DNA of 33,661 nucleotides, from positions 1 to 33,661 of the forward strand of contig JADZDA010000224.1 of the NCBI GenBank assembly GCA_020851255.1, written 5' to 3'. The notes beneath the pieces are model-generated. The model was not told the origin of the DNA and ran no database searches. It saw only the letters and a list, made by a program, of their open reading frames with translations. Within the stretch, counting starts at the first letter, position 1, and every line of letters begins with the position of its first letter. The DNA is from Burkholderiales bacterium. GTDB taxonomy: Bacteria > Pseudomonadota > Gammaproteobacteria > Burkholderiales > Casimicrobiaceae. Made by a program: the position numbers and the translations under genes. Positions 3,483 to 19,068 of the stretch are shown here, one piece after another.

Positions 3483-4930
3483 AATCCCTCTACGTTCCGC
3501 TCGACAACTCGGCGCACTCGCTCGCCGGCGTCGATCTCGCGATCACGATCGCGCGCGCCTCGGGCGCGGCGCTCGCCGGCGGCCACGTGTACGCCGCGAA
3601 GCTGCACGACCGGCGGTTCCGGCAGATGGAAGGCGGACTGCCGGCGCCCTACCAGAAGGAGGCGAAGCTCGTCGAGCAGCGGGAAATCCACGACGACCTG
3701 ATCACGCGCGGTCTGCAGGTGATCTCGGACTCCTACCTGGACGTGTTCGACGCCCGCTGCCGGGCCGCCGGCCTCGAGGCGCGCCGCGTCCATCTCGAAG
3801 GCAGGAACTGGCAGCGGCTGGTCGAGGACATCGGCGCGAGCGACTGCGACCTCGTCGTGATCGGCGCGCTGGGACTCGGCGCGGTACCGTGCACGCAGAT
3901 CGGCAGCGTCTGCGAGCGCGTGGCGCGTCGCGTCGACCGCGACGTCCTGGTGGTCCGCGAGACCGAACCGCGCGCCGACGGGGCGATCGTCGTCGGACTG
4001 GACGGCAGCCCCGCGTCGTGGGGTGCATTGCAGACCGCGTTCGATCTCGCACCGATCCTCGGCCGTCCGGTCGAGGCGGTGGCCGTGTTCGACCCGCATT
4101 TCCACTACGTCGCGTTCAACAGCATCGCGAAGGTCCTGTCGACGGAGGCGGCCAAGGTGTTCCGCTTCGAGGAGCAGGAGAAACTCCACGAGGAGATCAT
4201 CGATTCGGGGCTTGCGAAGATCTACCAGGGGCACCTCGATGTCGCGGCGCGGCTCGCGAAGGAGCGCGGAATCGCGCTCGGGACGACGCTGCTCGCCGGC
4301 AAGTCGTTCGAGAAGCTGCTCCAGTACGCCCGCGACTCGCGCGCCTGGTTGATGGCGGTCGGGCGCACCGGCGTGCATTCGGACGCGGGCATGGACCTGG
4401 GCAGCGCGACCGAGAATCTGCTGCGGCAAGCGTCCTGCAACCTGCTCCTGTCGGCGCGCACGTTCGAACCGCCGGCCGAGCACGTCGCAGAGGTCACGAT
4501 GGCCTGGACCGACGAGGCCGAGCGGCGGATCGCGCGCGTGCCGGATTTCGCCCGGCCGATGGCGCGCAAGGCGGTGGTGCGTCACGCGGCAGCGCTCGGG
4601 CACACGATCGTCACCTCCGATGTCATCGACACGCTGATGGCGACGATTCCTGCCGGCGCCGTCGACCGGTACGCTGCGAAGCGGGGACTCGACGCCGGGT
4701 CGCTGCAGGGTGCCGGCGGTCGTTGCCCGTTCGCCCCGCGCGCCGACGCGCCGACCGAGGCCGCGTGGACGCCCGAGGCACTCGAGCGCCTCGGGCGCAT
4801 ACGGCCGGAATCGGTTCGCGACCACGCGAGATTGAGGATCGAGAAGGCGGCGCGGCGGGCCGGCGTCGGGCTGATCGACGCAGCGGCGGTCGAAGACGCC
4901 GAGCGCGCGGTCCAGGCGACGCTGGGATGA
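3476..4930 (+). CDS. Tandem universal stress protein with two C-terminal PCP_red-like repeats
   Basis: In this 484-aa cytoplasmic protein, residues 1 to about 165 and about 170 to 330 are two UspA-type alpha/beta domains. Each ends in a VIGALGLGAV or AVGRTGVHSD nucleotide-loop-like stretch. Residues about 342-392 match the PCP_red domain, the C-terminal module of the protochlorophyllide reductase B subunit: W-x-x-E/D-A, then a V/I-P-x-F-x-R core, then an Arg/Ala helix. A second, more divergent copy lies at about residues 431-480 (WTPEALERLGRIRPESVR). It starts within the end of the SCO gene and overlaps the radical SAM start by 4 bases. The Usp part suggests ligand or stress sensing; the role of the repeats is unknown, though association with tetrapyrrole or redox enzymes is suggestive. 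Confidence 0.82.
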   Translation: MVKSLYVPLDNSAHSLAGVDLAITIARASGAALAGGHVYAAKLHDRRFRQMEGGLPAPYQKEAKLVEQREIHDDLITRGLQVISDSYLDVFDARCRAAGLEARRVHLEGRNWQRLVEDIGASDCDLVVIGALGLGAVPCTQIGSVCERVARRVDRDVLVVRETEPRADGAIVVGLDGSPASWGALQTAFDLAPILGRPVEAVAVFDPHFHYVAFNSIAKVLSTEAAKVFRFEEQEKLHEEIIDSGLAKIYQGHLDVAARLAKERGIALGTTLLAGKSFEKLLQYARDSRAWLMAVGRTGVHSDAGMDLGSATENLLRQASCNLLLSARTFEPPAEHVAEVTMAWTDEAERRIARVPDFARPMARKAVVRHAAALGHTIVTSDVIDTLMATIPAGAVDRYAAKRGLDAGSLQGAGGRCPFAPRADAPTEAAWTPEALERLGRIRPESVRDHARLRIEKAARRAGVGLIDAAAVEDAERAVQATLG

Positions 4931-6231
4931 GCCCGTTCACCGCCGTCGGGCACCCGGAGGAGGGCACGCTGAACTCCCCGGGGGCGCCGCGGCCCCGGAT
5001 CGTTTCGTGGAACCTGACCCGGGTCTGCAACCTGGCCTGCGGGCATTGCTATCTCGACGCCACGCAACGACGCAGCGAAGCCGCCGACGAACTGTCGACC
5101 GACGAAGCGCTCCAGGTCGTCGAAGACCTGGGCAGGATGGCGCGCGGCGCGATGCTCGTGCTGACCGGCGGGGAGCCGTTGCTTCGCCGCGATCTGGATC
5201 GCCTGGTCGCCGCGGCGTCGTCCGCGGAACTGATGCCGGTCGTCGGCACCAATGGTCTGCTGCTCGGGCCGGCACGGGCGTCCGCGCTGCGATCGGCGGG
5301 AGCGGCCGGGGTGGGCATCAGCATCGACTCGGCCACGCGCACCTTCCACGACCGGCTGCGCGGCATGGACGGCGCCTGGGCCAGAGCGATCGACGGCGCC
5401 CGCGCGGCGCGCGCGGCCGGCCTGGGCGTCCTGCTCCAGACCACCTTGTTCGAGGAGAACCGCGGCGACCTGGAGGCGATGATCGGAATCGCGCGCGACG
5501 TCGGTGCGATGGCGCTGAACGTCTTCTTTCTCGTGTGCACCGGGCGCGGTGTGAGCCAGACCGACCTGTCGGGCGCGCGGTACGACGAAGCCCTGGCGAG
5601 AATCCTCGCGCTCCAGGACGCCAATCCGGATCTCCTGATCCGGGCGCGCTGCGCGCCCTATGTGCGACGCCTGCGTGGGTTGCGGGCCGGCGAGGGTGAC
5701 GCGCTGCACGCCGACTGGTCGAGCGCCTGCCTCGCCGGCCGCGAGTACTTCCGGATCACCCCCAGCGGCGACGTGACCGCGTGCCCCTACATCCCCGCGT
5801 CCGCGGGCAACGTCCGTGTCGCACCGCTCGACGCGGTCTGGGCCCGCGCGCCGGGCTTCCAGCGGCTCCGCGAGGAGACTCCGGGGGGCAAGTGCGGCGT
5901 ATGCGACTTCCGCGTGTCCTGCGGGGGGTGCCGCGCGCGGGCGTTGGTCGCGACCGGGGACCTGCTGGGCGAGGACGCGAAATGCACCTATGTCCCGGCG
6001 GTCACGGCGCTGCCCGAGCGTCGTGAACGGCCGGTTTCCGCCAACGCGGTCGCCTGGGACGAGGACGCTGCGGCGATGCTGGAACGCATCCCCGGCTTCG
6101 TCCGGGATCGGGTCCGCGAACGCACCGAGGCGGCCGCCCGACGCGAGGCGGTGGCCGTGATCACGCTCGCCTACCTGCGCGCCCGCAGGCCGGGTGCACC
6201 GGAGATCGCCGGCGCACGCCCCGGCGCGTAG
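4927..6231 (+). CDS. Radical SAM/SPASM protein (NirJ/AhbD-like) with C-terminal PCP_red-like domain
   Basis: This is a 434-aa protein. The radical SAM cluster motif is C34-x3-C38-x2-C41 (CNLACGHCY), followed by the LTGGEPLLR SAM-binding stretch. At about residues 270-350 there is a SPASM-type auxiliary cluster region with several Cys, including CGVCDFRVSCGGC. This layout is shared by NirJ and AhbD, which modify propionate side chains in heme d1 and alternative heme synthesis, and by peptide-maturing enzymes. Residues about 376-425 (AWDEDAAAMLERIPGFVR and following) form a PCP_red-like module like those in the preceding Usp. ATG 4927 overlaps the previous stop as ATGA. A tetrapyrrole substrate is inferred from family and neighbours; peptide modification is the alternative. 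Confidence 0.8.
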   Translation: MSPFTAVGHPEEGTLNSPGAPRPRIVSWNLTRVCNLACGHCYLDATQRRSEAADELSTDEALQVVEDLGRMARGAMLVLTGGEPLLRRDLDRLVAAASSAELMPVVGTNGLLLGPARASALRSAGAAGVGISIDSATRTFHDRLRGMDGAWARAIDGARAARAAGLGVLLQTTLFEENRGDLEAMIGIARDVGAMALNVFFLVCTGRGVSQTDLSGARYDEALARILALQDANPDLLIRARCAPYVRRLRGLRAGEGDALHADWSSACLAGREYFRITPSGDVTACPYIPASAGNVRVAPLDAVWARAPGFQRLREETPGGKCGVCDFRVSCGGCRARALVATGDLLGEDAKCTYVPAVTALPERRERPVSANAVAWDEDAAAMLERIPGFVRDRVRERTEAAARREAVAVITLAYLRARRPGAPEIAGARPGA

Positions 6232-6255: not shown

Positions 6256-7680
6256 TCAGGCGACCGCGCAGTGCCGCCCGACGCGTTGCGACGACCGCGG
6301 CTCGCCGGCCAGGACCGAGTCTATGCGGTCCGCCGCCGCGTAGCCGGCCGCGATGCACGACGCCGTGGAGACGCCGGCGACGTAGTTGCCGGCGATCGCC
6401 AGACCCGGATTGGCGCGTTCCGCCGTTCTCAGGGCCTCCAGCCGGGCGTGGTGATCGAGCCCCGGCTGCGGCAGTCCGGCGCGCCAGTACCTCACGTCGC
6501 AGAACTCGGGCTCGGCATCCGGGCGGATGCCGAGCAGGTCGCGCAGCTCGTCCTTCACGAGACCGACCAGGTCGTCGCGCCGCAAAGCCGCGAGTTCCGG
6601 CTGCCGCGCGCCGCCGACATAGGCGGTTAGCAAGACCCGGCCATCGGGCGCGCGTGCGCCGAACAGCGTCGAGGAGAAGAGCACGCCCAGGATTCCGCGG
6701 CCTTCGCCGCGAGGAATCAGCGCGCCCAGTCCGTCGAGGGGATGGGAGACCGCCGCGCGCGGCCATCCCAGCGCGACCACGGCGAGGGGAGGATGGTCGA
6801 GGGTCGCGAGCGCGCACGCGGCGGCCGGATCCAGTCGACCGAGCAGGCGGGCGGCGGTCGGCGCCGGTGTCGCGATCACCACCGCCCGCGCGGTGATGGT
6901 GGTCGCGCCGCGGTGCCCTCGGATACCGATCCGGTATCCACCGGCGGCGCGCTCGACGCGCGTGACGTCCGCGTCGGTCCGGATCCGCTGTCGAATCGTC
7001 CCCGCGATCGAGTCGCTGAGGTGCGTCAGTCCCCGGCGAAACGAAACGAGCCGTCGGGATGCGGGGCCGAAGCCGCGCCGCCCGGCGCGCAGCGCGAGGA
7101 GTACTCCCCGGGAGACGCTGCCATGCTCGCGTTCCAGCCGTTTGAGCTGCGGGAACAGCGCAACGACCGACAGTCGCTCGGGATCGCCGGCGTACAGACC
7201 GCCGACGAGCGGATCGAACACACGCCGCGCGAATTCATCGCCGAACCGCCGGCGCGCGAAGTCGGCCACCGTCTCGTCGCCGTCACGCGGTCGGATCCAC
7301 GGCTCGGCGGCGAGTCTGAGCCGCCCGCCGATCGAAAAGTACGAAGAACCGAGCAATCCGAAGGGCGAGGTCGGCAGCGCACGGATCACGCCGTCCCGGA
7401 CCAGGTAGCGGCGGCGTACGCCGTCGCCGCGATCGATCCGGTCGCCGGCGATGCCGAGCGATTCGATCAGTCCCTCCGCGTCCGGCGCGGGCAGCGCGAG
7501 ACTCGTGGGCCCGTGCTCGACCAGGTAGCCGTCGCGCCGCGCGGTCTCGACACGCCCTCCGACGCGTGGCGATCGCTCGAGCACGATGACATCGCGGCCC
7601 ATGCGCGTCAACGCGTAGGCGGCTGCGAGCCCTGACAGGCCCGCGCCGACGATCACCGCGTCGTGCGCTCCGATGTTCAT
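6256..7680 (-). CDS. hemG: Oxygen-dependent protoporphyrinogen oxidase (HemG/HemY type)
   Basis: The 474-aa FAD enzyme oxidises protoporphyrinogen IX to protoporphyrin IX, the penultimate step of heme synthesis. The N-terminal Rossmann FAD motif reads VIVGAGLSGLAAAYAL with a downstream ERSPRVGGR stretch. A conserved FDPLVGGLYAGDPERLS segment and the C-terminal FAD-contact region (GNYVAGVSTASCIAAG) are typical of the family, and the length fits. ATG 7680 begins directly before the FAD fold; a TTG at 7704 is possible but unlikely. It converges on the radical SAM gene (24-base gap) and diverges from the cupredoxin-idr operon. It plausibly supplies heme for the many c-type cytochromes around it. 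It is also called hemY or pgoX in other nomenclatures. Confidence 0.88.
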   Translation of the reverse strand: MNIGAHDAVIVGAGLSGLAAAYALTRMGRDVIVLERSPRVGGRVETARRDGYLVEHGPTSLALPAPDAEGLIESLGIAGDRIDRGDGVRRRYLVRDGVIRALPTSPFGLLGSSYFSIGGRLRLAAEPWIRPRDGDETVADFARRRFGDEFARRVFDPLVGGLYAGDPERLSVVALFPQLKRLEREHGSVSRGVLLALRAGRRGFGPASRRLVSFRRGLTHLSDSIAGTIRQRIRTDADVTRVERAAGGYRIGIRGHRGATTITARAVVIATPAPTAARLLGRLDPAAACALATLDHPPLAVVALGWPRAAVSHPLDGLGALIPRGEGRGILGVLFSSTLFGARAPDGRVLLTAYVGGARQPELAALRRDDLVGLVKDELRDLLGIRPDAEPEFCDVRYWRAGLPQPGLDHHARLEALRTAERANPGLAIAGNYVAGVSTASCIAAGYAAADRIDSVLAGEPRSSQRVGRHCAVA

Positions 7681-7878: not shown

Positions 7879-7894
7879 TGGCATGTGACTTGCA
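7879..7894 (+). promoter_or_regulatory. Sigma-54-like -24/-12 promoter of the cupredoxin-idr operon
   Basis: The sequence is TGGCATG, TGAC, TTGCA, with GG (7880-7881) and GC (7892-7893) exactly 10 bases apart. It differs from TGGCACG-N4-TTGCA at one base (T for C). The predicted start near 7905 leaves a 40-base leader ending in a good ribosome site (GAAGGAG) before ATG 7945. The related arsenite oxidase operons (aioBA) are known to be sigma-54 dependent. Confidence 0.65.
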
Positions 7895-7944: not shown

Positions 7945-8664
7945 ATGCGATCTCATCGGATCACCCTCGTCCTCCTGGGCCTGCTGTTCGGCGCGAGCGC
8001 CTGGGCGCAGGGATACACCGTCACCGCCGCGGGCGCCGGGAGCGTCAGCGGCAAGGTCGCGGTCAAGGGCGCGGTCCCCGCGTCGAAGAAGTTCGCCATC
8101 ACCAAGGACAACGCGGTGTGCGGCAGCGGCGAGCGCGAAGTCGTCGAGGTGAACGTCAAGGGCGGGCAGCTCGTCGGCGCCGTCGTCTACGTCATGAAGA
8201 TCGACGCCGGCAAACCCTGGGGCGTCGCCGACAAGGCGCTGCTCGACCAGAAGGGCTGTCGATTCGCTCCCGAGGTCCTGGTCGTCCGGAAGGACAGCGA
8301 CCTGACGATCCGGAATTCGGATCCGGTGCTCCACAACATCCACACCTACGAGATCATCGGCAGCGTCCGCAGGACGATGTTCAACGTTGGCCAGCCGGAC
8401 AAGGGCGACATGAAGCAGCCGATCAAGGTGCGGCGCGCGAACGCGATCAAGGTCGAATGCGACGCGCACGACTTCATGCACGCCTGGGCGTTCGCCGCCG
8501 ACAACCCCTACTACGCGGTCACGAAGGACGACGGTTCGTTCACGATCGACGGCCTTCCCGACGGCGCCTACGAACTCAAGGTCTGGCACCCGGTGTTGGG
8601 CGAGAAGAGCGCCCAGGTGACCGTCAAGGGCTCGACCACGGCGTCCTTCGAGTACGCCAAGTAA
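7945..8664 (+). CDS. Exported cupredoxin-like copper protein at head of the idr operon
   Basis: In this 239-aa protein a signal peptide (LVLLGLLFGASAWA) ends near residue 21. The mature protein has a beta-rich body with putative type I copper ligands: H130 or H133 in VLHNIHTYE, and C172, H175 and M178/H179 in VECDAHDFMHAW. The C-terminal 50 residues (DDGSFTIDGLPDGAYELKVW) look like a carboxypeptidase-regulatory/transthyretin-like fold. This combination occurs in periplasmic plastocyanin-like proteins near cytochrome gene clusters. The start is set by GAAGGAG at 7931-7937. The peroxidase gene follows after 23 bases, so it is probably co-transcribed with idr and may carry electrons to or from the enzyme (inference). 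Actual copper binding is not proven by the sequence. Confidence 0.75.
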   Translation: MRSHRITLVLLGLLFGASAWAQGYTVTAAGAGSVSGKVAVKGAVPASKKFAITKDNAVCGSGEREVVEVNVKGGQLVGAVVYVMKIDAGKPWGVADKALLDQKGCRFAPEVLVVRKDSDLTIRNSDPVLHNIHTYEIIGSVRRTMFNVGQPDKGDMKQPIKVRRANAIKVECDAHDFMHAWAFAADNPYYAVTKDDGSFTIDGLPDGAYELKVWHPVLGEKSAQVTVKGSTTASFEYAK

Positions 8665-8687
8665 TCGCCCCCCAAGGGAGACGCTCC

Positions 8688-9782
8688 ATGAAGGCTCTCA
8701 AGATCACCTGCGCGATCGCGGTCGCGCTCGCCGGCGCGGCGGTTGTCTCGCGTCCGGCCCTCGCCCAGGCGGCACCGGACCTCGTGCCGTTGCCCGAAGC
8801 GCGCGCGAACGCGGCGATGGCGGAACTGGGCAAGTTCCTGTTCTTCGACGAGCGGATGTCCGGAGACGCCGCTCTGTCTTGCGCGACCTGCCACGACCCG
8901 AAAAAAGGATGGACCGACGGCCAGCCGCTGGGCCGCGCCTACCCCGCGTCGGAGTACTTCCGCAATACGCCGACCGTGCTCAATGCAACGCTCAAGGCGC
9001 GCTACCACTGGGACGGACGCCTGGACGGCGGCGACGCGGGGACGCTGGTCCGCGACCAGATGACCGAGTCGGTGTTCATGAACATGGACGCGCGACTCGC
9101 GCAGGAGCGCGTCAAGCAGGTGCCCGAGTACGTCGCGCTGTGGAAGAAATTCCGCAACGACGACCCGAACGGCATGCGGATCTTCAACGTCATCGGCGAG
9201 TACCTGAAGACGCTGACGTCGAAGAACGTGCCCTTCGACCGCTGGAAGAAGGGCGAGGCCGCCGCGATGAACGCGCAGCAGGTCGCCGGTTACGAGATCT
9301 TCAAGGGCAAGGGCGGATGCGTCGCTTGCCACAACGGGCCGGTCGGGTCCGATGGCAAGCTGCACAGAACGGGCGTACCCGCGAATCCCGCAATCACGGC
9401 CGAGCCGTTGCGGCATATCACGATGCTGCGTCATTACTCGACGAGCGGCATGCCCAACTACATGAACACGCACGACGACGTGGGATCGTACGCGATCACC
9501 AAGGACCCGAGGGACAAGGGCAAGTTCCTGACGCCGTCGATCCGCGAGCTCAGGTCGACGGCCCCGTACATGCACAACGGCACGTTCGCGACGCTCGAGG
9601 ACGTCATCGAATTCTACGATCGCGGCGGCGGCGTCGGGTCCGAACTCAAGCCGATCGGCCTTTCAGCCGTCGAGAAGCAGGCACTCGTGGCCTTTCTCCG
9701 CGATGGTCTATCCGGCGACCCGCAAGTCGTCGACAAGCCGACGCTGCCGGCCTATCAGGTCCGCGCGTTCGGCAAGAACTAG
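8688..9782 (+). CDS. idrP: Diheme cytochrome c peroxidase-like protein (IdrP-type), first copy
   Basis: The 364-aa protein has a signal peptide (ITCAIAVALAGAAVVSRPALA) and two c-type hemes at CATCH (residues 65-69) and CVACH (211-215). The FDERMSGDAALSCATCH entry and the TAPYMHNGTFATLEDVIEFYDRGGG block are hallmarks of the bacterial CcpA/MauG peroxidase family. In dissimilatory iodate reducers two such proteins, IdrP1 and IdrP2, are encoded with IdrAB and are proposed to remove H2O2 made during iodate reduction. The ribosome site is AAGGGAG and the next gene starts 10 bases after the stop. I cannot tell whether this one is P1 or P2 without alignment. Alternative: a stand-alone peroxidase. Confidence 0.82.
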   Translation: MKALKITCAIAVALAGAAVVSRPALAQAAPDLVPLPEARANAAMAELGKFLFFDERMSGDAALSCATCHDPKKGWTDGQPLGRAYPASEYFRNTPTVLNATLKARYHWDGRLDGGDAGTLVRDQMTESVFMNMDARLAQERVKQVPEYVALWKKFRNDDPNGMRIFNVIGEYLKTLTSKNVPFDRWKKGEAAAMNAQQVAGYEIFKGKGGCVACHNGPVGSDGKLHRTGVPANPAITAEPLRHITMLRHYSTSGMPNYMNTHDDVGSYAITKDPRDKGKFLTPSIRELRSTAPYMHNGTFATLEDVIEFYDRGGGVGSELKPIGLSAVEKQALVAFLRDGLSGDPQVVDKPTLPAYQVRAFGKN

Positions 9783-9792
9783 GGGAACAGCG

Positions 9793-10989
9793 ATGACGAC
9801 CAACCGATCCACACTCGTCGCGGTCGCGGTCGCGGCGTCGATCGCCGCCTCCAGCGCTTTCGCGCAGTCGCCGACCGGCCCAGGAAAGGGCGCGCCGGCG
9901 GCGGCCAAGGGCGCGGTGACCGCGTCGGCGAAGCCCGCGTTTCCGCCGCTCGGTCCGCTGCCCGCGGTGCCGGTCCCGTCCGACAACCCGATGACGCCGG
10001 CCAAGGTCGAGCTGGGCAAGATGCTCTTCTGGGACACGCGCCTGGGCGGCGACGCGTCGTCGCCGTGCGTCGTGTGCCACGAGCCGTCGAAGGGTTGGGG
10101 CGACGCCGGTGAAATCTCCCGGGGTTATCCGGGAACCCAGCACTGGCGCAATTCGCAGACGATCCTCAACTCCGCCTATTACAACAAGCTCTTCTGGGAA
10201 GGAAACGTCACCAGCCTCGAAGGTCAGGCGCCCGCGGCGGCGGAGGGCAACGTGGCGGGCAACGGCGATCCGTCCCTGATGGAAATGCGCATGCGCTTCA
10301 TTCCCGAATACGTGCGGCGCTTCAAGGAAGTTTTCGGCGTCGAGTGGCCGCGGATCACCCAGGCGTGGCAGGCGATCGCTGCGTTCGAGCGCACGATCGT
10401 CTCCGACGCGAAGAAGGTGCCGTTCGACCGCTACATGGCCGGGGACCGCAGCGCGCTCTCCGAGTCGGCGTTGCGCGGGATGGCGGTCTACCACGGCAAG
10501 GGCGCGTGCATCGAATGCCACAACGGCCCGCTCGCGTCCGACCAGAAGTTCTACTCGCTGGGCGTACCGGAGAACGAGGTGTTCAGGACCGACGCCCTCT
10601 ACCAGGTGACGCACCGCTGGGAGCACTACCAGAAGGGAGTCACGGAGCCGGGCTACCGGAACGCCGATCTCGACATGGGTCTCTACTACCAGACGAAGAA
10701 TCCCAAGGACTCCGGGAAGTTCCGCACGCCCAGCCTGCGCGAACTCAAGTACACGGCCCCGTACATGCACAACGGCGTCTTCTACACGCTCGACGAAGTC
10801 GTCGATTTCTACGACAAGGGCGGCGGAACGCTCGGTCCGAACAAGTCGACGCGGATCCGGCCGCTCGGACTGACCGCCCAGGAGAAGAAGGACCTGGTCG
10901 CGTTCCTGGAGTCGCTCAGCATGGACACGCCGTTGATCGTCGATTCGCCCAGACTGCCGCCGTACGCGCCGCTCAAGACCACCAAGTAG
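9793..10989 (+). CDS. idrP: Diheme cytochrome c peroxidase-like protein (IdrP-type), second copy
   Basis: This 398-aa paralogue of the preceding gene has a signal peptide ending near AFAQ. A low-complexity Ala/Gly/Lys/Pro linker (about residues 25-60) is absent from the first copy. Hemes sit at CVVCH (92-96) and CIECH (239-243). The conserved SLRELKYTAPYMHNGVFYTL block and YDKGGG are present. The two copies are clearly divergent, suggesting old duplication and separate roles rather than redundancy. It precedes the Rieske gene by 10 bases. The pairing of two diheme peroxidases with an AioAB-like enzyme is the main sign that this operon is iodate reductase rather than arsenite oxidase. Confidence 0.82.
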   Translation: MTTNRSTLVAVAVAASIAASSAFAQSPTGPGKGAPAAAKGAVTASAKPAFPPLGPLPAVPVPSDNPMTPAKVELGKMLFWDTRLGGDASSPCVVCHEPSKGWGDAGEISRGYPGTQHWRNSQTILNSAYYNKLFWEGNVTSLEGQAPAAAEGNVAGNGDPSLMEMRMRFIPEYVRRFKEVFGVEWPRITQAWQAIAAFERTIVSDAKKVPFDRYMAGDRSALSESALRGMAVYHGKGACIECHNGPLASDQKFYSLGVPENEVFRTDALYQVTHRWEHYQKGVTEPGYRNADLDMGLYYQTKNPKDSGKFRTPSLRELKYTAPYMHNGVFYTLDEVVDFYDKGGGTLGPNKSTRIRPLGLTAQEKKDLVAFLESLSMDTPLIVDSPRLPPYAPLKTTK

Positions 10990-10999
10990 GGAGCCGGAC

Positions 11000-11572
11000 A
11001 TGAACATCGCAAACATCGCGGATGGCCTGAATCGCCTCGACGATCACGGCGCCGGCGAGCGGGCCTGCATGAGCCGCAGGAATTTCCTGCTCGCGGCCGG
11101 GTCGGTTGTGACCCTCGCGGCGATGCCGGGACTCTCCGACGCCGCGCCACTGCATGCGCTGCGCGCGGACTACCCGCGTACGCGGATCGGCAGACTGTCG
11201 GCGCTGCAGCTGGGGGTGCCGGTCACCTTCAGCTACCCGTATCCGAACGTCCGAAACATGCTCGTCAAGCTGGGCGCCCCGGCCGGTGCCGGCGTGGGGC
11301 CGGCGAACGACGTCGTGGCGTTCAACCAGCAGTGCACGCACATGGGCGGGCCGCTCGACGGCACCTACAAGGCGCAACACCAGGTGCTGGGGCCCTGTCC
11401 GCTGCACCTGACGACATTCGATCTGACCCGGCATGGCATGGTCGTGTCCGGTCACGGTACCGAGAGCCTTCCTCAGATCCTGCTCGACGTGCAGGGAGAC
11501 GACATCTACGCGGTCGGCGTGCTGGGGCTGATCTGGGGTTATTCGGCCAATCTGGCCGGGCGGCGCGGGTAA
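11000..11572 (+). CDS. idrB: Rieske [2Fe-2S] subunit, iodate reductase/arsenite oxidase small-subunit family
   Basis: The 190-aa protein has a twin-arginine signal (MSRRNFLLAAGSVVTLAAM), so it is exported folded and probably carries the large subunit with it, as AioB does for AioA. Rieske ligands are C112-x-H114 (CTHMGG) and C133-x2-H136 (CPLH). The two extra cysteines that form a disulfide in bc1-type Rieske proteins are absent (Gly and Leu instead), as in some AioB proteins. ATG 11000 has GGAG upstream; ATG 11069 would start directly at the Tat motif and is an alternative. It lies 10 bases before idrA. Confidence 0.85.
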   Translation: MNIANIADGLNRLDDHGAGERACMSRRNFLLAAGSVVTLAAMPGLSDAAPLHALRADYPRTRIGRLSALQLGVPVTFSYPYPNVRNMLVKLGAPAGAGVGPANDVVAFNQQCTHMGGPLDGTYKAQHQVLGPCPLHLTTFDLTRHGMVVSGHGTESLPQILLDVQGDDIYAVGVLGLIWGYSANLAGRRG

Positions 11573-11582
11573 GGAGAGCACC

Positions 11583-14279
11583 ATGAGCGAACGCACCACG
11601 AACAGCGCCTACGGCGTCTTCGCGAAGGACTACGTCCCGCTGCCGCCGAAGAACGCCGAGGTCTTCACCACCGCCTGCGACTACTGCACGGTGGCCTGCG
11701 GCTACAAGGTCTACCGGTGGCCGGTCGGCCGCGAAGGAGGCCAGCAGGCGTCCCAGAACGCGGTCGGCGTCGACTTTCCCAACGCGCTGATGAACTCGGC
11801 GGCCTGGGTGAGTCCGTCGCAGCACAACATCGTCCGTCATCAGGGGCGACCTCACCACGTCGTCGTCATTCCCGATCGCGACAGCAAGGTCGTCAACGTC
11901 GGCGGCAACCACTCGGTCCGCGGCGGCACGCTCGCGCAGAAGTGCTACAACCCGGACAACCGCACGTCCGAGCGCCTGCTCTATCCGATGATCCGGGTGC
12001 GCGGCACCTTGATGCCGGTGTCGTGGGATCTCGCGACCGAGGTGATGGCCGACATCTCGAAGTACGTCATCGCCAAGTACGGCGAGCACGCGTGGGCGGT
12101 CAAGATGTACTCGTACCAGTACTTCGAGAACACCTACGCGATCACCCGGCTCGCGATGACCTCGATCGGCACGCCGTCGGTCGCGCCGCACGACAAGTGC
12201 GCGGGCACGAACGACGCGACCGGCCTGGACGATGCCGGTATCGACTCGTTCGCGGCGAGCTACCAGGACTGGGCCGACTGCGAGGTCGCCTTCTGTTCTG
12301 GCGTCGACCCCTACGAGACCAAGACGACGTTGTTCACGTCCTGGATGATGCCCGGCGACAAGAAGTTCATCTTCGTGACGCCGCACCAGACGATGGGCGT
12401 CGCGTGGGCGGTGAAGAACGGTCGCGGCCTGTGGCTGCCGATCGAGCCGGGCACCGACACGGTGCTGCATATGGCGCTCGCCCGTATCGTCATCGAGAAC
12501 AACTGGCAGGACCAGGCGTTCATCGACAAGTGGGTTGCGAACCCCTGGGAAGTCGACCAGGGATACGGCCGCGGGACCCGGAACACCGGCTGGCAGTGGC
12601 GGACGACCTGGGGAACCTGGCAGAGCGACTGGGAGGACTACAAGAAGTTCATCCTCGCCCAGGAGGAATCGAAACTCGACGTCGCCGCGAGGATCACCGG
12701 TCTCAAGGCCGAGGACATCCGCAAGGCGGCCGAGTGGATCGCCAAGCCGAAGGCCAACGGGGATCGGCCGAAGACCTCGTTTATGCTGGAGAAGGGCAAC
12801 TACTGGTCCAACAACTACATGAACACCGCGTCGCTCGCGAGCCTCGGGCTCGCCTGCGGCGCCGGCAACCGGCCGGGGCGGATGATCTCGCGCGGCGGTG
12901 GTCACCAGCGCGGCATGATGGGCGCCGGTGGTGGCTCGGGGTGGCTCAACCCCGAGAAGTACCCGGGACGGCGCAAGAAGGACTTCAACCTCGACCGCTG
13001 GCTGATGGCCGGGGAAGTCAAGTTCGCGTGGGTGTTCGGCACGACCTGGGTCGCGGCGATGATGGCGTCGCAGGCGCTCGCCGACCGGATGCAGCAGATG
13101 ACGCGCGGCAGTCCTCATCAGATCACCCATCTCGATCGCGCCGCGATCTTCGAGGTCCTGAAGAAACGCGTCGACAACGGCGGCATGGTGATGGTCGATT
13201 CCGACATCTATCCGTGCGTGCCGGTCGGAACGGAATTCGCCGACATCGTCCTCCCGGCGGCGACCTGGGGCGAGGACGACTTCACGCGCTGCAACTCCGA
13301 GCGCCGGCTGCGGCTCTACGCGAAGTTTTACGACGCCCCCGGCGATGCGAAGCCCGACTGGTGGGCGGTGGCGAAGTTCGCGCAGAAGATGGGATTCGAT
13401 GCCGACGGCAGTTACCAGTGGAAGACGTCCAACGACGTGTTCGAGGAGGCCGCCCGGTTCGGCCGGGGCGGCGTGCTCAACTACCACCCGCTGGTCGGCA
13501 AGGCGAAGGAGAAGGGGATCAAGGCCCACGAGTTGTTGCGCGGTTACGGGACGGCCGGGATCCAGACCCCGATCCGTGTGCGCAACGGCGAGCTGGTCGG
13601 CACGAAGCGGCTGCACGATCCGACCAACGACTGGGGCGAGATGGAACAGGCCGAGGTCCAGGAGAAGTTCCTCTACGCGTTCAACACGCACTCCGGCAAG
13701 GCGATCCTGCTCAAGAGCCCTTGGAAATTCGCCGGCTGGATCCAGTTCTACGAGGCGGTCAAGCCGCGTCGGGAGAAGGGCGAGATCTGGGTGACCAACG
13801 GTCGTATCAACGAAACCTGGCAGTCGGGCTTCGACGACCTGCGCAAACCCTATCTCGCGCAGCGCTGGCCCTACCCGTTCCTCATCGTCCACCCGGCCGA
13901 CGCGAAAAGGAAAGGCATCGAGTCGGGCGACTTCGTCCAGGTCCACAACGACACCGTGTACGTGCAGGTCGGCCAGCCGCAGGGTGTGCTCGACCCGGAT
14001 CTCAATTTCAACAACCTGCTCAAGGACGGGCATATCAAGACCACGCAGGGGCAGTTCGTCGCCGTCGCGATCGTCAGCGACGAAATGCGCGAAGGCGTCG
14101 CGATGGCGAATTTCAACTTCCCCGGCGCGCCGGCGAACTCGGTCGTCTCGGCGGTACCCGACCCGGTGACCAACAACTACCGCTACAAACTGGGACGCGG
14201 CGTGCTGACGAAACTGGGCGAGTCGCCGTACAAGCGCGACTTCACGGCGATGAGCCTCAAGCCGCGCAACATCGCGTAG
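11583..14279 (+). CDS. idrA: Molybdopterin oxidoreductase large subunit, probable iodate reductase catalytic subunit
   Basis: The 898-aa DMSO-reductase-family protein is closest in pattern to AioA/IdrA. The cluster motif C32-x2-C35-x3-C39 with a Ser near 111 in place of a fourth Cys is the [3Fe-4S] arrangement of this branch. SVRGGTLAQKCYNPDNR and the GGGHQRGM region match bis-MGD binding stretches. It lacks its own signal peptide, consistent with Tat co-export on IdrB. R437 and H441 align with arsenite oxidase Arg419 and His423, but the position of the arsenite-contacting His195 appears to be Ala207 (KCAGTND) by hand alignment. With two IdrP-like peroxidases alongside, dissimilatory iodate reductase is the best call. 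Arsenite oxidase is the alternative. The reaction would be iodate reduction in the periplasm. Confidence 0.78.
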   Translation: MSERTTNSAYGVFAKDYVPLPPKNAEVFTTACDYCTVACGYKVYRWPVGREGGQQASQNAVGVDFPNALMNSAAWVSPSQHNIVRHQGRPHHVVVIPDRDSKVVNVGGNHSVRGGTLAQKCYNPDNRTSERLLYPMIRVRGTLMPVSWDLATEVMADISKYVIAKYGEHAWAVKMYSYQYFENTYAITRLAMTSIGTPSVAPHDKCAGTNDATGLDDAGIDSFAASYQDWADCEVAFCSGVDPYETKTTLFTSWMMPGDKKFIFVTPHQTMGVAWAVKNGRGLWLPIEPGTDTVLHMALARIVIENNWQDQAFIDKWVANPWEVDQGYGRGTRNTGWQWRTTWGTWQSDWEDYKKFILAQEESKLDVAARITGLKAEDIRKAAEWIAKPKANGDRPKTSFMLEKGNYWSNNYMNTASLASLGLACGAGNRPGRMISRGGGHQRGMMGAGGGSGWLNPEKYPGRRKKDFNLDRWLMAGEVKFAWVFGTTWVAAMMASQALADRMQQMTRGSPHQITHLDRAAIFEVLKKRVDNGGMVMVDSDIYPCVPVGTEFADIVLPAATWGEDDFTRCNSERRLRLYAKFYDAPGDAKPDWWAVAKFAQKMGFDADGSYQWKTSNDVFEEAARFGRGGVLNYHPLVGKAKEKGIKAHELLRGYGTAGIQTPIRVRNGELVGTKRLHDPTNDWGEMEQAEVQEKFLYAFNTHSGKAILLKSPWKFAGWIQFYEAVKPRREKGEIWVTNGRINETWQSGFDDLRKPYLAQRWPYPFLIVHPADAKRKGIESGDFVQVHNDTVYVQVGQPQGVLDPDLNFNNLLKDGHIKTTQGQFVAVAIVSDEMREGVAMANFNFPGAPANSVVSAVPDPVTNNYRYKLGRGVLTKLGESPYKRDFTAMSLKPRNIA

Positions 14280-14402: not shown

Positions 14403-14492
14403 TGGCGGAGAGATAGGGATTCGAACCCTAGATACGATTCCTCGTATACTTGATTTCGAGTCAAGCGCCTTCGACCACTCGGCCATCTCTCC
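14403..14492 (-). tRNA. tRNA-Ser (anticodon CGA)
   Basis: The acceptor stem GGAGAGA pairs perfectly with TCTCTCC, followed by discriminator G and an encoded CCA (14405-14403). The anticodon stem is CTTGA/TCAAG with loop CTCGAAA, anticodon CGA at 14458-14456, reading UCG. A long variable arm (TATACGA, GGAA, TCGTAT) and T-loop GGTTCGAATCC confirm a serine tRNA. Its 3' end points toward the idr operon. Confidence 0.97.
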
Positions 14493-14606: not shown

Positions 14607-16394
14607 ATGTTCGCTTCCGAGACGCCCGCCGCGCCGGCACGCTCGCCGTCCGGCCGCTTCGTGCCCGCGGGCGCCTCCGCCGCCATGCTCGCAGGCGCCG
14701 TGATCGCGGTTCTCGGGCTGGCGGCGCCACTCGATCGAGCACTGGGCGACAATGCGTTCCGCGCGCTGCGCGGAATGCCGTTGCCGCCGACGGTGCCGCC
14801 GATCGTGGTCGTCGCCATCGACGAATCCTCGGTCGCGGCGCTGCCCGAGCCGATCGTGCTGTGGCACCGCCACCTCGGCGCGGTCCTCACCGCCGCGGCT
14901 GGCGCCGGCGCGCGGATCGTCGGCGTCGACGTCGTGCTGCCCGATCGCAGTCTCGCGTCGATCTCTCCGGATCTGGATCGCGCGCTCGTCGACGGCGTGC
15001 TGCGGATGCGGCTCGCCGGCGGTGTCGTGCTCGCACTCACCGTCGACGGGGCCGGCGTGCCGCGCGCGGTCCACGCCCCGCTGCTCGCCGCGGCCGGACC
15101 GACGGGAGCCGGCTACGCGTTGTGGCGCCTGGACAGCGACCGTGTCGTCCGTCGCTACGACGAGCGGATGGGCGCGCACGGGGAGACCGTCGCCATGTTC
15201 GCCGGCCGGATCGCGCGCGCGCTCGCCGCGAACCCGCGCGAAGGAGGGATCCAGTACGCGCTCGGCGACGACGTCGAAGTCCTGTCCTTCGGCGAGATCC
15301 TGCGTCTGGCGCGCATCGGCGACGACGCGGCGCTCGCCGCGCTGCTGCGAGGCAAGGTCGTTCTGATCGGGTCGACGCTGCCATTCGCCGATCGCGTGGC
15401 AGCGCCGATCGCGCTGGGAGCGGGCGCGCCGGCCGGTGATGTGCCCGGCGTGCTCGTCCACGCACAGGCACTGCGCACGCTCCTGGCCGGTCGGACGGTG
15501 CGCACGCCGCCGGGATGGGTCGTCTGGACCATCGCGGCAGCCCTCGCGGCGGCGGGGTGGCTCGCCGGCGGGCGTCCCTTGCGGGCGGCGGTCGGCGTGG
15601 TCGCCGCGGCGGCGCTCGCGGTCGCGGTCGCCCATGGCGCACTCGATCGTGACATCGCGCTGCCGACCGGCACGTTCGCGGCTGCGTTCATCGCGGCCGT
15701 CGTCGCGCGCACCGCGATCGAGGCGGCGTTCGCCTGGCGCGAGCGTGTCCGGCTACGCCACGCGTTCGGCGGCTACGTGAGTCCGGCGGTGATGGCGGAG
15801 ATCGAGTCGGGACGCCTCGCCGGTCTCGCGAGCGCGCGCCGGTTCATCGTCGTGCTGATCCTCGACGTCCGCGACTTCACGACGCGCACCGAACACGAGC
15901 CGCCCGAACGCGTGATCGCGACGATCAACGCGCTGTGCGAGCAGGCCACCGCGGCGATCCATGCGCGCGGCGGCACCGTCGACAAGTTCATGGGTGACGG
16001 CATCCTCGCGTTCTTCGGCGCACCGGCGCCGCTCGCCGACCCGGCGGCGGCGGCGTTCGACTCTGCCGTCGACATCCTCGCTCGCGTGCGACGGTTGGGC
16101 GAGCGCCTGGCGGGGTCGGGCGAGGCCCCGCTCGCCATCGGGATCGGCCTGTCCTGCGGCGAGGCGGTCGTCGGCCATGTCGGCGCCGCGTCCCGACACG
16201 CGTACACCGCGATCGGCGATTGCGTGAACGTGGCGTCCCGACTCGAATCGCTGACCAAGACGATCGGTCATCCGGTCGCGATGACCGCCGAACTCGCTTC
16301 CCGGCTGGCCGGGCGTTCCGGTATCGTTGCGCTCGGCAGGCACGACATCAAGGGGCACACACCGGTCGAGGTGGTCGGATGGAAGCCAACCTAG
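14607..16394 (+). CDS. CHASE2-domain adenylate cyclase (class III)
   Basis: The 595-aa membrane protein has one N-terminal helix and an extracytoplasmic CHASE2 sensor domain (about residues 35-295, with the IVVVAIDESSVAALPE signature). Two or three helices follow (about 300-380), then a cytoplasmic class III cyclase domain. Metal-binding Asp420 (ILDVRDFT) and Asp464 (KFMGD) are present. Purine-selecting Lys460 and Asp538 (IGDCVN) favour ATP over GTP, and the transition-state pair Asn541/Arg545 (NVASRLE) is intact, so it should be active and make cAMP in response to a periplasmic signal. It overlaps the next gene by 16 bases, heading a four-gene operon with two caspases. Confidence 0.88.
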   Translation: MFASETPAAPARSPSGRFVPAGASAAMLAGAVIAVLGLAAPLDRALGDNAFRALRGMPLPPTVPPIVVVAIDESSVAALPEPIVLWHRHLGAVLTAAAGAGARIVGVDVVLPDRSLASISPDLDRALVDGVLRMRLAGGVVLALTVDGAGVPRAVHAPLLAAAGPTGAGYALWRLDSDRVVRRYDERMGAHGETVAMFAGRIARALAANPREGGIQYALGDDVEVLSFGEILRLARIGDDAALAALLRGKVVLIGSTLPFADRVAAPIALGAGAPAGDVPGVLVHAQALRTLLAGRTVRTPPGWVVWTIAAALAAAGWLAGGRPLRAAVGVVAAAALAVAVAHGALDRDIALPTGTFAAAFIAAVVARTAIEAAFAWRERVRLRHAFGGYVSPAVMAEIESGRLAGLASARRFIVVLILDVRDFTTRTEHEPPERVIATINALCEQATAAIHARGGTVDKFMGDGILAFFGAPAPLADPAAAAFDSAVDILARVRRLGERLAGSGEAPLAIGIGLSCGEAVVGHVGAASRHAYTAIGDCVNVASRLESLTKTIGHPVAMTAELASRLAGRSGIVALGRHDIKGHTPVEVVGWKPT

Positions 16395-17275
16395 CGAAAC
16401 ACCGCGCCCGCGCGCCACGCGCCCGCGGTGCCGGACACGCCGCGGTTCGTCGGGCCTGCGCGCCCGGGGCGATCGTGGCCATGGCCGCGTTCGCGGCCAT
16501 GGCCTCGGCGCAACCGGTGGCGGTGGTGACGGACGTCACCGGAGCGGTCGCCAGCTCGGCCGGTGGCCCGATCGCGATTCTCGCTTCGGTCTCCGCCGGC
16601 GAACGCCTGCGATTGGCGCCGGCGTCGCGAGTCGCATTGCTCTACTACGGCGATGGCGCGCAGTACGACGCACGCGGCGCCGGCGAAGTCGTCGTCGAAG
16701 CCTCGAAGCCGCGCGCGGAGTCGGGCGCGTTCGTCGAACCGCGGCGCGATTCCGCGACACCGGCGGTCCGGCTTCGCACCGCGGACGTGGCGCAGGGCGC
16801 GATCGTCATGCGAAACCTGGGCCTGCGCGTGGTCGCACCCGAAGCGCAGGTGTACTCGCTCCGGCCGGAGCTCGCCTGGACCGACTCGCGCACCGAGGCG
16901 ACCTACGAGGTCGCGCTCCTCGACGCGACGGGCCGGCCGGTCTACGAGACGACGACTCGCGAGCGATCGGCGGCCCTGCCCGACCACGTAGCGCTCGTGC
17001 CCGGCGCCTCCTACGCGTTGCAGGTGACCGCGCGCGTGCGCGCGGCGGTCGCCCAGGTGGCGCGTGCCGAGTTCCGCATCGCGCCCGCCGACCTGCGCGA
17101 GCGGGCGGACGCCCTCGCGCCCGGACGACCGGCCGCCGCGATCGCCGACCGCGTCGCCTACGCGCTTTGGCTCGAACAGAACGAGTTGCCCGACGAGGCG
17201 CGGCGATGGTGGCGCGATCTCGCGCGCGTTCGACCCCACGACGACGCGCTGCGGCGGCGGGCCGGCGGGCGATGA
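16379..17275 (+). CDS. FecR-like exported protein with TPR-like C-terminus
   Basis: In this 298-aa protein a basic N-terminus and hydrophobic stretch (IVAMAAFAAMASAQP) form a signal peptide or anchor. Residues about 40-110 (VTDVTGAVASSAGGPI, then GERLRLAPASRVALLYY) have the glycine-turned beta pattern of FecR-type periplasmic domains. The middle part resembles an Ig/Fn3 fold (YEVALLDATGRPVYE) and the end has a single TPR-like pair (YALWLEQNELPDEARRWW). ATG 16379 overlaps the cyclase; its stop overlaps the next start as ATGA. Function is unknown; FecR-like proteins beside CHASE2 and caspase genes suggest a periplasmic scaffold or sensor. Confidence 0.65.
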   Translation: MEANLAKHRARAPRARGAGHAAVRRACAPGAIVAMAAFAAMASAQPVAVVTDVTGAVASSAGGPIAILASVSAGERLRLAPASRVALLYYGDGAQYDARGAGEVVVEASKPRAESGAFVEPRRDSATPAVRLRTADVAQGAIVMRNLGLRVVAPEAQVYSLRPELAWTDSRTEATYEVALLDATGRPVYETTTRERSAALPDHVALVPGASYALQVTARVRAAVAQVARAEFRIAPADLRERADALAPGRPAAAIADRVAYALWLEQNELPDEARRWWRDLARVRPHDDALRRRAGGR

Positions 17276-19068
17276 GCGTCGGCTGCACGTCCCGCCGGGC
17301 GTTCCTGCGTTCGCTGGCGGCGCTGTCGATCGGGGCCGTGCCCGGACCGATCGCCGCGGCGACCCGCGATCCGTCGCGCGTGGCGCTCGTGGTCGGCAAC
17401 GACGCCTCCCCGGCCGCGCCGCTCGCCAACGCGGTGAACGACGCGAACGCCGTGGCCGCCTTGCTCGAGAAAGCCGGATTCGGCGTCGAACGGCGCGTGA
17501 ACGCGACACGCAGCGAGCTCGTCGCGGCCGCCGGACGTTACGTCGAGGCCGCCGCGCGCAGTGAGATTTCGCTCGCGCTGTTCTACTACGCCGGTCACGG
17601 CGCGCAGCTGGACTGGCGCAATTACCTGTTGCCGGTCGACGCGCGGGTCGACACGGCGTCCGACCTGCCTGCGCAGGGCGTGGACATGGGGTCGCTGCTG
17701 GTGCGACTGGGTCGTGCGAAAGGCCGTTCGTACGTCGTCATCCTCGACGCGTGCCGGGACAATCCGTTCGGACCGTCGTTCCGTCCGTCGCAACCGGGTC
17801 TGTCGCAGTTCGACGCGCCGCCCGGCGGCTTGCTCGCCTTTTCGACGGCGCCGGGCAGCGTCGCCGCCGACGCCGCTACCGCGTCGGGCCGGGCCGGTCT
17901 CTACACCGAGAACCTGGTCCGCGAACTTTCGGTCCCCGCGACCCGTCTCGAGGACGCGTTGAAACGCGTGCGGCTCGCGGTGCGCGTCGCCTCGCGCGGG
18001 GCGCAGATACCATGGGAGTCCACGTCGCTCGAAACCGACGTGTTCCTCTTCCCCTCGGGCCGCAGGCTGACCGAAGCGGAGATCGAGTCGGCGCTCGAAC
18101 GCGAGCTCGCGAGCTGGAACCGCGTCAAGGGGTCGAAGAACATCGACGACTGGATCGTGTTCCTGCGCGAGTGGCCGAGCGGCCGGTTCGCCGAAGTCGC
18201 CCAATCGCGCCTCTCGCACTTCGCGGCGCGCGACGAGGGTGCTCGCCTCGCCGCGCGGATCGCCGCTGCCGCGACGCCGCTGCCCGCGATCGGCTCCGCG
18301 CCGAGCGTGACGCTCGCGGCGGCAGCGCTCGCCGACGCGCCTCCACGCGAGCCTGCCTCGGTCGTCGCGGCGGCGGCACCCGCTGCGCCGGCGGTCGCGA
18401 TATCCATGCCGCCAGCGGCGCCGGTGCCGTCCGCGACTTCGATCCTCGACATCGCGCCCGGACGACCGGTGCCGGCGCTGATGCGTCCATCGGCCAACCC
18501 GAACTCGGCCGGCACCTACGTGCTCGGACGCCGCTTCGAGGTCGGCGACCGGGTCGTCTACCAGCGCAGCGATCCGGTCTACGGCGGGGAAAGGGAGACC
18601 GTCGATTGGCGCGTGACGGGCGTCGACCTCGACGGCGACCGCGTCGAGCTGAACGACGGCTTCATCGTCCTCGATTCGATGGGCAACCCGCTGGTGTGGG
18701 ACGGCGTCGTCTACGAGCCGCGATTCCAGGCGGTTCCGTCCGAGTTCCAGCTCGGCAAGCGCTGGACGACGCGCTACGTGGCGTCGCGCGCCGGCCAGGC
18801 GCCGTTCGAGGCCTACTACGATTATGTGATCGCCGCGCGCGAGAGGATCCGCCTGCCGTTCGGCGAGGTCGAGACCTTCCGCGTGGATGGCGAGGGCTTC
18901 CAGGTTCGATCGGGCCAGCGGCTGACGATCCAGCACTGGCTGGTACCGGGCGTCAATTATTCGCTGCGAACGGACAACCGCCGATACGATGCCCGCAGCC
19001 TGCGCGTCGTCCGGGCGGAATTGCGCGAGATGGTCTCGTGCCGCCAGGTCCGGTGGGCACCGGCGTAG
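17272..19068 (+). CDS. Tat-exported caspase-like (C14) protease, first copy
   Basis: The 598-aa protein has a twin-arginine signal (TSRRAFLRSLAALSIGAV; RR at 8-9). The caspase p20-like domain (about 40-260) has catalytic His109 in YYAGHGAQ and Cys161 in LDACRDNPF, both intact. A helical region (about 265-320, SWNRVKGSKNIDDW and LREWPSGRFAEVA) is frequent in bacterial caspases. An Ala/Pro linker (about 330-400) leads to a C-terminal beta-rich domain (about 405-598, from NPNSAGTYVLGRRFEVGD) that I do not recognise. It is fourth-base coupled (ATGA) to the FecR-like gene. Target proteins are unknown; caspase homologues of this kind usually cleave after Arg/Lys or Asp. Confidence 0.85.
   Translation: MSVGCTSRRAFLRSLAALSIGAVPGPIAAATRDPSRVALVVGNDASPAAPLANAVNDANAVAALLEKAGFGVERRVNATRSELVAAAGRYVEAAARSEISLALFYYAGHGAQLDWRNYLLPVDARVDTASDLPAQGVDMGSLLVRLGRAKGRSYVVILDACRDNPFGPSFRPSQPGLSQFDAPPGGLLAFSTAPGSVAADAATASGRAGLYTENLVRELSVPATRLEDALKRVRLAVRVASRGAQIPWESTSLETDVFLFPSGRRLTEAEIESALERELASWNRVKGSKNIDDWIVFLREWPSGRFAEVAQSRLSHFAARDEGARLAARIAAAATPLPAIGSAPSVTLAAAALADAPPREPASVVAAAAPAAPAVAISMPPAAPVPSATSILDIAPGRPVPALMRPSANPNSAGTYVLGRRFEVGDRVVYQRSDPVYGGERETVDWRVTGVDLDGDRVELNDGFIVLDSMGNPLVWDGVVYEPRFQAVPSEFQLGKRWTTRYVASRAGQAPFEAYYDYVIAARERIRLPFGEVETFRVDGEGFQVRSGQRLTIQHWLVPGVNYSLRTDNRRYDARSLRVVRAELREMVSCRQVRWAPA

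Follow-up and report, generated by a model that had tools for sequence, protein, structure and literature searches.

The window, as we call the whole stretch of 33,661 nucleotides analysed here (contig JADZDA010000224.1 of a Burkholderiales bacterium), carries an iodate reductase (Idr) operon that is led by the gene of an exported cupredoxin-like protein, termed CUP below, and continues with genes for two di-haem proteins (IdrP2 and IdrP1), a Rieske subunit (IdrB) and the molybdopterin catalytic subunit (IdrA). The operon is real and, judged from its sequence, probably encodes a functional iodate reductase of the known kind; sequence comparison identifies its IdrAB, IdrP1 and IdrP2 as orthologues of those already characterised. 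The cupredoxin at its head is undescribed but recurrent, and the adjoining block of genes, which includes those for c-type cytochromes and, on a second contig of the genome as well as in relatives, a cytochrome bd-like protein, is probably co-regulated with the operon. We consider it fairly probable that the locus represents a fuller form of the iodate respiration operon or island than the form found in the isolates, with CUP acting as a periplasmic carrier and the block as a candidate quinol-oxidising module.

The five genes form a single forward-strand run (7945–14279) whose gaps of 23, 10, 10 and 10 bases agree with the 10–23 bases given in an earlier annotation of this DNA (the original prediction). 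For comparison, named genomes were scanned with a six-row IdrA profile and the best 80 of 492 relatives were used, so that deeper IdrA branches are under-sampled; the loci include those of Denitromonas iodatirespirans IR-12, Aromatoleum toluvorans, Roseovarius azorensis and Notoacmeibacter marinus. A chance arrangement is excluded because 17 further loci likewise have CUP ahead of P2-P1-B-A, and the run corresponds to the P2-P1-B-A synteny of Reyes-Umana et al. The original prediction had suspected a variant of the system on account of both the peroxidases lying ahead of B and A and the leading copper protein. The former part does not stand and a variant gene order is rejected: in the published passages covered, the order idrP2,P1,B,A is given for SCT, IR-12 and M. 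iodofontis (PMC10989891), and idrP1P2 are said always to precede idrAB (PMC8801600). The latter part holds, as idrP2 has CUP for its upstream neighbour in 17 of 63 further idr loci whose sequence extends 4,300 bases or more ahead of idrA (22 loci are too short to be assessed).

Identity of the reductase and its peroxidases

IdrA of the window is 78% identical to that of IR-12 and 79% and 75.5% identical to plasmid-borne relatives of Azonexus and Thiothrix, respectively, as against about 30–36% for proteins of the arsenite oxidase (AioA) side. In a 93-row IdrA tree, calculated by a quick search without bootstrap, it belongs to a 28-row clade (SH-aLRT 99) together with IR-12, Azoarcus and Aromatoleum, and the seven AioA-side rows are separate (100); three of the seven are annotated and the other four are labelled AioA from 32–36% identity. 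The placement of IdrA with iodate reducers, and not inside AioA, is thus as originally anticipated. The motifs published as diagnostic (PMC10149662) are CX2CX3CX70S for IdrA, CXHX18CX2H plus a Tat signal for IdrB and two CX2CH per IdrP. IdrA contains C32, C35, C39 and Ser111, the last separated by 71 residues, one more than X70, and the translations of IdrB and of both IdrP proteins display their respective motifs.

Thirty-eight positions split the IdrA from the AioA side (at least 95% of the one and six of seven of the other agreeing). Asp is found in 82 of 86 IdrA-side rows (D211 in the window) where all seven AioA-side rows have Glu, at a position presumably belonging to the arsenite site (His, Glu, Arg, His); the window IdrA retains His203, Arg437 and His441 and replaces the Glu by Asp211, which leaves the four-residue AioA set incomplete. 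That the operon serves arsenite oxidation (Aio) or acts on some other oxyanion, iodate not being its natural substrate, is very improbable: the best-scoring models reported for IdrA (TIGR02693, 452 bits) and IdrB (TIGR02694, 111.5 bits) are arsenite oxidase models, matched over cut-off and labelled ‘arsenate reductase (azurin)’ by NCBIfam for both subunits, and the best PDB relatives of IdrA are AioA proteins, but tree, identity (at most 36% to the AioA side) and neighbourhood all argue against it, no di-haem peroxidases being present in the three annotated Aio neighbourhoods viewed.

A divergent sister pair of IdrA, 47–49% identical to that of the window, is encoded on a plasmid of Vibrio sp. 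THAF190c (L017, 9001–11652) and in genome G014 (L023, 9491–12145), where the P2-P1-B-A run is kept and Asp211 is missing. Two differing idr copies per genome were observed in Sulfuritalea bin.273 (G328; L038 and L051) and in a groundwater betaproteobacterium (G302; L042 and L085).

IdrP1 and IdrP2 match CCP_MauG (PF03150) with 131 and 116 bits, respectively. In a P1/P2 tree both group with the P1 and P2 proteins of other idr loci, in line with their earlier assignment to the IdrP clades, although SCT is not among the loci compared. Some rows labelled P2 fall among P1; they are taken as fragment loci in which only P1 survives and the best P2 hit is then P1. The best NCBIfam models for both proteins are MauG and MbnH, in each case below cut-off, and the top PDB match of IdrP1 is the di-heme enzyme 6e1c, which we take to be BthA. 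The axial haem-ligand position is occupied by Tyr in 70 of 74 P1 rows and 73 of 74 P2 rows, in place of the Met that is the axial ligand of the high-potential haem in a classical bacterial cytochrome c peroxidase. Classical peroxidases have Met at this position and MauG and BthA Tyr, the ligation of which is tied to bis-Fe(IV) chemistry (PMC6405878). As IdrP1 and IdrP2 look MauG-like by their axial ligand, naming them cytochrome c peroxidases may mislead; their functions are given as unclear in the literature (PMC11445184). In a deltaproteobacterial locus (L102, 12700–13737), an IdrP2-like gene is located after instead of before idrA and is followed by a divergent cupredoxin.

The leading cupredoxin

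CUP has a hydrophobic, Sec-signal-like N-terminus. It matches no NCBIfam model and no Pfam cupredoxin family, Pfam giving weak matches to beta-domains only (e.g. CarboxypepD_reg), and its assignment as a copper protein is based on the predicted fold and the conserved ligands. Foldseek relates the AlphaFold2 model (pLDDT 91.2) to amicyanin, pseudoazurin and plastocyanin with a probability of 1.00 at 11–18% identity, indicative of a predicted cupredoxin fold. His130 and Cys172-x2-His175-x2-Met178, which would constitute the type 1 ligand set His…Cys-His-Met, are invariant in all 22 aligned CUP proteins, including four copies encoded after idrA or 8 kb away.

The 17 other loci with CUP in front of idrP2 belong to proteobacteria and five further phyla: they derive from seven betaproteobacteria, one gammaproteobacterium, one Rokubacterium, three Nitrospinota, one myxococcal, one Hydrogenedentota and two Planctomycete genomes and one bin without phylum in its title. 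In 15 of them no more than about 110 bases separate the CUP stop codon from a start codon of idrP2, or the two genes overlap (L086), whereas the gap amounts to about 400–445 bases in L075 and L078. The genomes of four contig-cut loci (L026, L027, L029 and L036) hold close CUP copies (66–73%), that of L036 with a CUP-P2-P1-B run on another contig. Otherwise CUP is rare: of 249 genomes sampled from the window’s phylum, three gave a match (E≤1e-20), and two of these carry idrA. In the CUP tree, one clade (95/90, with a bootstrap that had not settled) unites 20 of the 23 idr-linked copies and four others, and the presence and absence of CUP on the IdrA tree implies at least eight changes. The original impression that the copper protein may not be part of described idr loci agrees with the passages covered and is extended here by its recurrence: neither a cupredoxin nor a cytochrome bd tied to idr was found by term search in PMC8692401, PMC10989891, PMC11445184, PMC10149662, PMC8801600, PMC10746228 and PMC10100899 (not every term in each), supplements and Yamazaki 2020 lying outside this coverage. 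Both iodate and cupredoxin are mentioned in PMC8301774 and PMC7925997, neither of which contains idrP1.

Relatives of CUP are encoded beside di-haem peroxidases without adjacent IdrAB (L163 and L200) and, on plasmids of Sinorhizobium and Phyllobacterium, next to SCO, in Phyllobacterium also with oxidase genes; for others (e.g. L160–L162) the DNA fetched around them contains neither idr nor peroxidase nor bd-like genes. A function of CUP as carrier is favoured because the recognisable settings of its relatives are electron-transfer ones, and IdrP1 and IdrP2 are favoured as its partners because of the peroxidase–CUP pairs.

The adjoining block and its regulation

A sigma-54 promoter match precedes the CUP gene (Table 1). 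The strict pattern matches once in the window, with 0.01 matches expected and one of 100 shuffles matching. It is present in the same slot in seven of nine CUP-containing loci of the beta/gamma clade, the window included, the other two agreeing at 10 of 12 positions; since the matches precede CUP there, CUP is situated between the idr promoter and idrP2 in this clade. Searched on both strands, the 1,565,612 bases of the idr and control loci yielded 25 matches to a relaxed pattern, of which 17 lie just before CUP (8), idrP2 of loci without CUP (7), idrP2 of L103 (1) or the bd-like gene of L044 (1), the labels being crude as L158 does possess CUP and the CUP of L103 lies 8 kb upstream. The remaining eight are located elsewhere, one of them immediately ahead of the gene for the small Aio subunit in NT-26. 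A relaxed match also stands ahead of the bd-like gene in seven of eight loci, that of the window’s own genome included.

The genes upstream of CUP recur in relatives. CUP is preceded by no fewer than two of them, those for the radical SAM protein and the protoporphyrinogen oxidase, in L024, L025, L031, L042, L045, L064, L091 and L158, and still further upstream the relatives fetched encode a histidine kinase, a sigma-54 response regulator and the bd-like protein. In the window’s genome these three genes are located at the end of contig C63, which stops inside cytc1; the two parts of cytc1 cover homologous residues 4–138 on C63 and 134–295 in the window, suggesting that C63 runs into the window. 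The kinase and the regulator of L044 are 48–52% and 59–61% identical to those beside idr in Denitromonas and Azoarcus, and 64–68% and 74% identical to those of the window’s genome. The accessory idr genes named in PMC8801600 are moaA and those for a c551-like cytochrome and a two-component system.

The bd-like gene directly follows idrA in two Rokubacteria, as part of the block in L066 and with part of cytc1 before the contig end in L068. A bd-like protein was detected in 16 of 48 idr genomes searched, which gave 50 of the 80 loci, one copy (G302) having an internal stop, and in 3 of the 249 sampled genomes of the window’s phylum, two of the three being idr carriers. The copy of L044 is CydA-like with 14 hydrophobic segments. 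Within proteobacterial idr genomes the bd-like protein occurs in 11 of 12 with CUP versus 2 of 23 without, counts that are not independent as the genomes are related.

Table 1. Features of the idr operon and the adjoining block in the window.
Feature	Position	Strand	Basis
cytc1, C-terminal part of a c-type cytochrome	1–501	+	start on contig C63 of the same genome
cytc2, membrane-anchored c-type cytochrome	498–1265	+	family match and relatives
Di-haem cytochrome c fused to EB_dh (type II DMSO reductase gamma-like)	1252–2805	+	PF09459, 60 bits; TIGR03477, 99 bits (below cut-off 169.85)
SCO1/SenC, copper chaperone family	2811–3482	+	PF02630, 90.7 bits
Universal stress protein with PCP_red domain	3476–4930	+	position conserved in relatives
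Radical SAM/SPASM protein with PCP_red, NirJ2/AhbD-like	4927–6231	+	family matches (below cut-offs) and relatives
Protoporphyrinogen oxidase-type flavoprotein	6256–7680	−	TIGR00562, 291 bits (over cut-off)
Sigma-54 (−24/−12) promoter match	7879–7894	+	TGGCATG-N4-TTGCA, 50 bases before the CUP start codon
CUP, exported cupredoxin-like protein, 239 aa, first gene of the operon	7945–8664	+	putative ligands H130, C172-x2-H175-x2-M178; predicted fold
IdrP2, MauG-type di-haem protein	8688–9782	+	PF03150; two CxxCH; Tyr310 at axial-ligand position
IdrP1, MauG/MbnH-type di-haem protein	9793–10989	+	PF03150; two CxxCH; Tyr340 at axial-ligand position
IdrB, Rieske [2Fe-2S] subunit	11000–11572	+	TIGR02694; Tat signal SRRNFL
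IdrA, molybdopterin catalytic subunit, 898 aa	11583–14279	+	TIGR02693; C32-x2-C35-x3-C39; no evident signal peptide

The PCP_red domain is positioned toward the C-terminal side of both the stress and the radical SAM protein (3476–6231), and both recur beside CUP-type idr. A second bd-like/cytochrome/EB_dh block, followed by a cupredoxin, is present in the Rokubacterium of L066 (L203, 395–5936), with no idr gene in the stretch fetched. Downstream of the operon, a tRNA-Ser gene on the reverse strand (14403–14492) lies 123 bases past idrA with its 3′ end facing idr, and in L026 a tRNA-Met gene of the same orientation is located about 110 bases past idrA. These positions fit an island insertion at tRNA ends; no tRNA was found in the locus of 11 of 12 relatives scanned. 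A further tRNA call (17707–17800, anticodon atc) is taken as false because it lies inside the gene of a caspase-like protein (17272–19068). This gene and that of a CHASE2-adenylate cyclase (14607–16394) found no match in the idr loci whose neighbours were compared.

A possible electron route to iodate and its relation to known systems

The idr cluster has been described as lacking a quinone oxidoreductase (PMC8692401), and the bd-like/cytochrome block is a candidate for it. Taken together, the membrane and cytochrome genes beside idr give the appearance of a more complete path of electrons to iodate than has been described from isolates. In the scenario we propose, the two-component system would sense iodate and turn on both operons, and electrons from quinol would pass via the bd-like protein and the c-type cytochromes to the periplasm. 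According to the published model, IdrB and IdrA would reduce iodate to HIO, which then disproportionates. IdrP1 and IdrP2 with their MauG-type Tyr ligand might clear peroxide or another reactive oxidant. CUP, copper-loaded with the help of SCO, would deliver periplasmic electrons most likely to IdrP1 and IdrP2 and possibly to IdrB.

Several observations weigh against this proposal. CUP is missing before idrP2 in 46 of the 63 assessable loci and was not detected (E≤1e-20) in the genomes of three iodate-reducing isolates (loci L035, L056 and L061); CUP is thus not needed for the chemistry, since proven iodate reducers do without it. The 23 idr-linked CUP proteins do not form one clade, a single clade being rejected (p-AU 0.006) and the Planctomycete copies falling outside the main one, from which it follows that CUP joined idr more than once, most copies coming from one source. 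The genomes with peroxidase–CUP pairs (G316 and G348) carry idr elsewhere and therefore do not prove a partnership free of idr. The bd-like block is absent from all seven CUP-containing genomes of Nitrospinota, Myxococcota, Hydrogenedentota and Planctomycetota, and the adjacency of C63 and the window, in a genome 86% complete, is deduced and not sequenced. Moreover, quinol oxidation by the bd-like protein is unproven because the bd-like proteins of nitrite oxidisers are reported to lack the quinol-binding residues and their function is termed enigmatic (PMC3578206).

Among the alternatives, we regard it as possible, if somewhat improbable, that the bd-like/cytochrome/EB_dh block is a mere neighbour serving another pathway. 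It is found away from idr in G340 and G348 and also in G037, a genome without IdrA match, and matches to the alpha subunit of type II DMSO reductases exist in the genomes of L025 (one over cut-off) and, more weakly, of L042 and L066. However, the block has its own sigma-54 site and idr-type two-component genes, its bd-like gene is placed directly behind idrA in the two Rokubacteria, and the bd-like protein goes along with CUP in the related proteobacterial idr genomes counted above. That the EB_dh block belongs to an Nxr/Nar-like type II DMSO reductase was rejected, no alpha subunit being detectable in the window’s genome at E≤1e-60.

An unlikely alternative for CUP itself is that it donates electrons directly to IdrAB in place of the small cytochrome c551 encoded beside idrA elsewhere. 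Arsenite oxidase is partnered by azurin or cytochrome c, with the opposite direction of electron flow, and the closest NCBIfam family is named arsenate reductase (azurin). In the beta/gamma clade, a small cytochrome c gene comes right after idrA in one of nine loci with CUP versus 8 of 14 without (Fisher p 0.04), a count that omitted six loci without CUP, five of a divergent subclade and one whose downstream DNA was too short; once the five are restored, the latter fraction becomes 9 of 19 (p 0.10), kinship being uncorrected. Over all assessed loci the difference disappears (4 of 18 versus 9 of 44, p 1.0) and no mutual exclusion is seen. CUP and cytochrome c551 as strict alternatives are therefore suggestive in the hand-picked beta/gamma part but not in the whole set, and the pairs of CUP with di-haem peroxidases without adjacent IdrAB likewise speak against a dedicated donor to IdrAB. 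We consider it quite unlikely that CUP is instead a substrate whose residues are modified by the MauG-like IdrP1 and IdrP2, as preMADH is by MauG. MbnH also modifies its partner protein, and the model ranking and Tyr ligation of both peroxidases would be compatible with such chemistry, but 45 of 46 assessable loci without CUP hold both peroxidases before idrA, and the invariance of the putative copper ligands fits a redox copper site.

On the preferred reading of CUP as carrier and the block as quinol-oxidising module, the locus provides candidates for the route from quinol to IdrAB, a gap in PMC8692401, and CUP as a possible partner protein for IdrP1 and IdrP2, whose role is open in print (PMC11445184). 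The data suggest that study has so far centred on isolates whose form of the system has neither the CUP nor the block genes. A wider generalisation, to which we give somewhat less than an even chance, is that many uncultured iodate respirers possess a self-contained supercluster in one sigma-54 regulon, equipped with a bd-like quinol:cytochrome c oxidoreductase, a copper electron carrier and haem and copper supply genes of its own, of which the isolates’ form would be a reduced derivative. If so, the latter would borrow those functions from the host, and the bd-like protein would fill the place of the dedicated quinone oxidoreductase noted as missing in earlier work.

Compared with the idrABP1P2 island of SCT, IR-12 and Azoarcus DN11, the window shares the four genes in the order P2-P1-B-A, an IdrA of the IR-12 clade and, in its genome, a homologous two-component system; it differs in the leading CUP, in the adjoining bd-like/c-cytochrome/EB_dh/SCO/haem block and in that the next gene called after idrA encodes the CHASE2 cyclase instead of c551 or MoaA. 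AioBA is related by superfamily, [3Fe-4S] cysteine motif, Rieske partner and three arsenite-site residues, and set apart by low identity, by the exchange of Glu for Asp211 and by its neighbourhoods. IdrP1 and IdrP2 resemble MauG, MbnH and BthA in their best models and in the Tyr at the six-coordinate haem, while scoring below the MauG and MbnH cut-offs. CUP resembles amicyanin, pseudoazurin and plastocyanin in its predicted fold and has the Cys-x2-His-x2-Met ligand spacing of amicyanin, whereas its 239 residues extend the beta structure well past the approximately 100 aligned columns, at low identity and without a family model match. Finally, a CydA-like protein, c-type cytochromes, a gamma-type subunit and cupredoxins are likewise combined in the nitrite oxidisers’ set (Nitrospina, Nitrospira and Kuenenia; PMC3578206). 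A bd-like homologue was not matched at E≤1e-20 in the three Nitrospinota genomes searched, so that direct homology to that set is not shown; the set accompanies NxrAB there, and the block IdrAB here.

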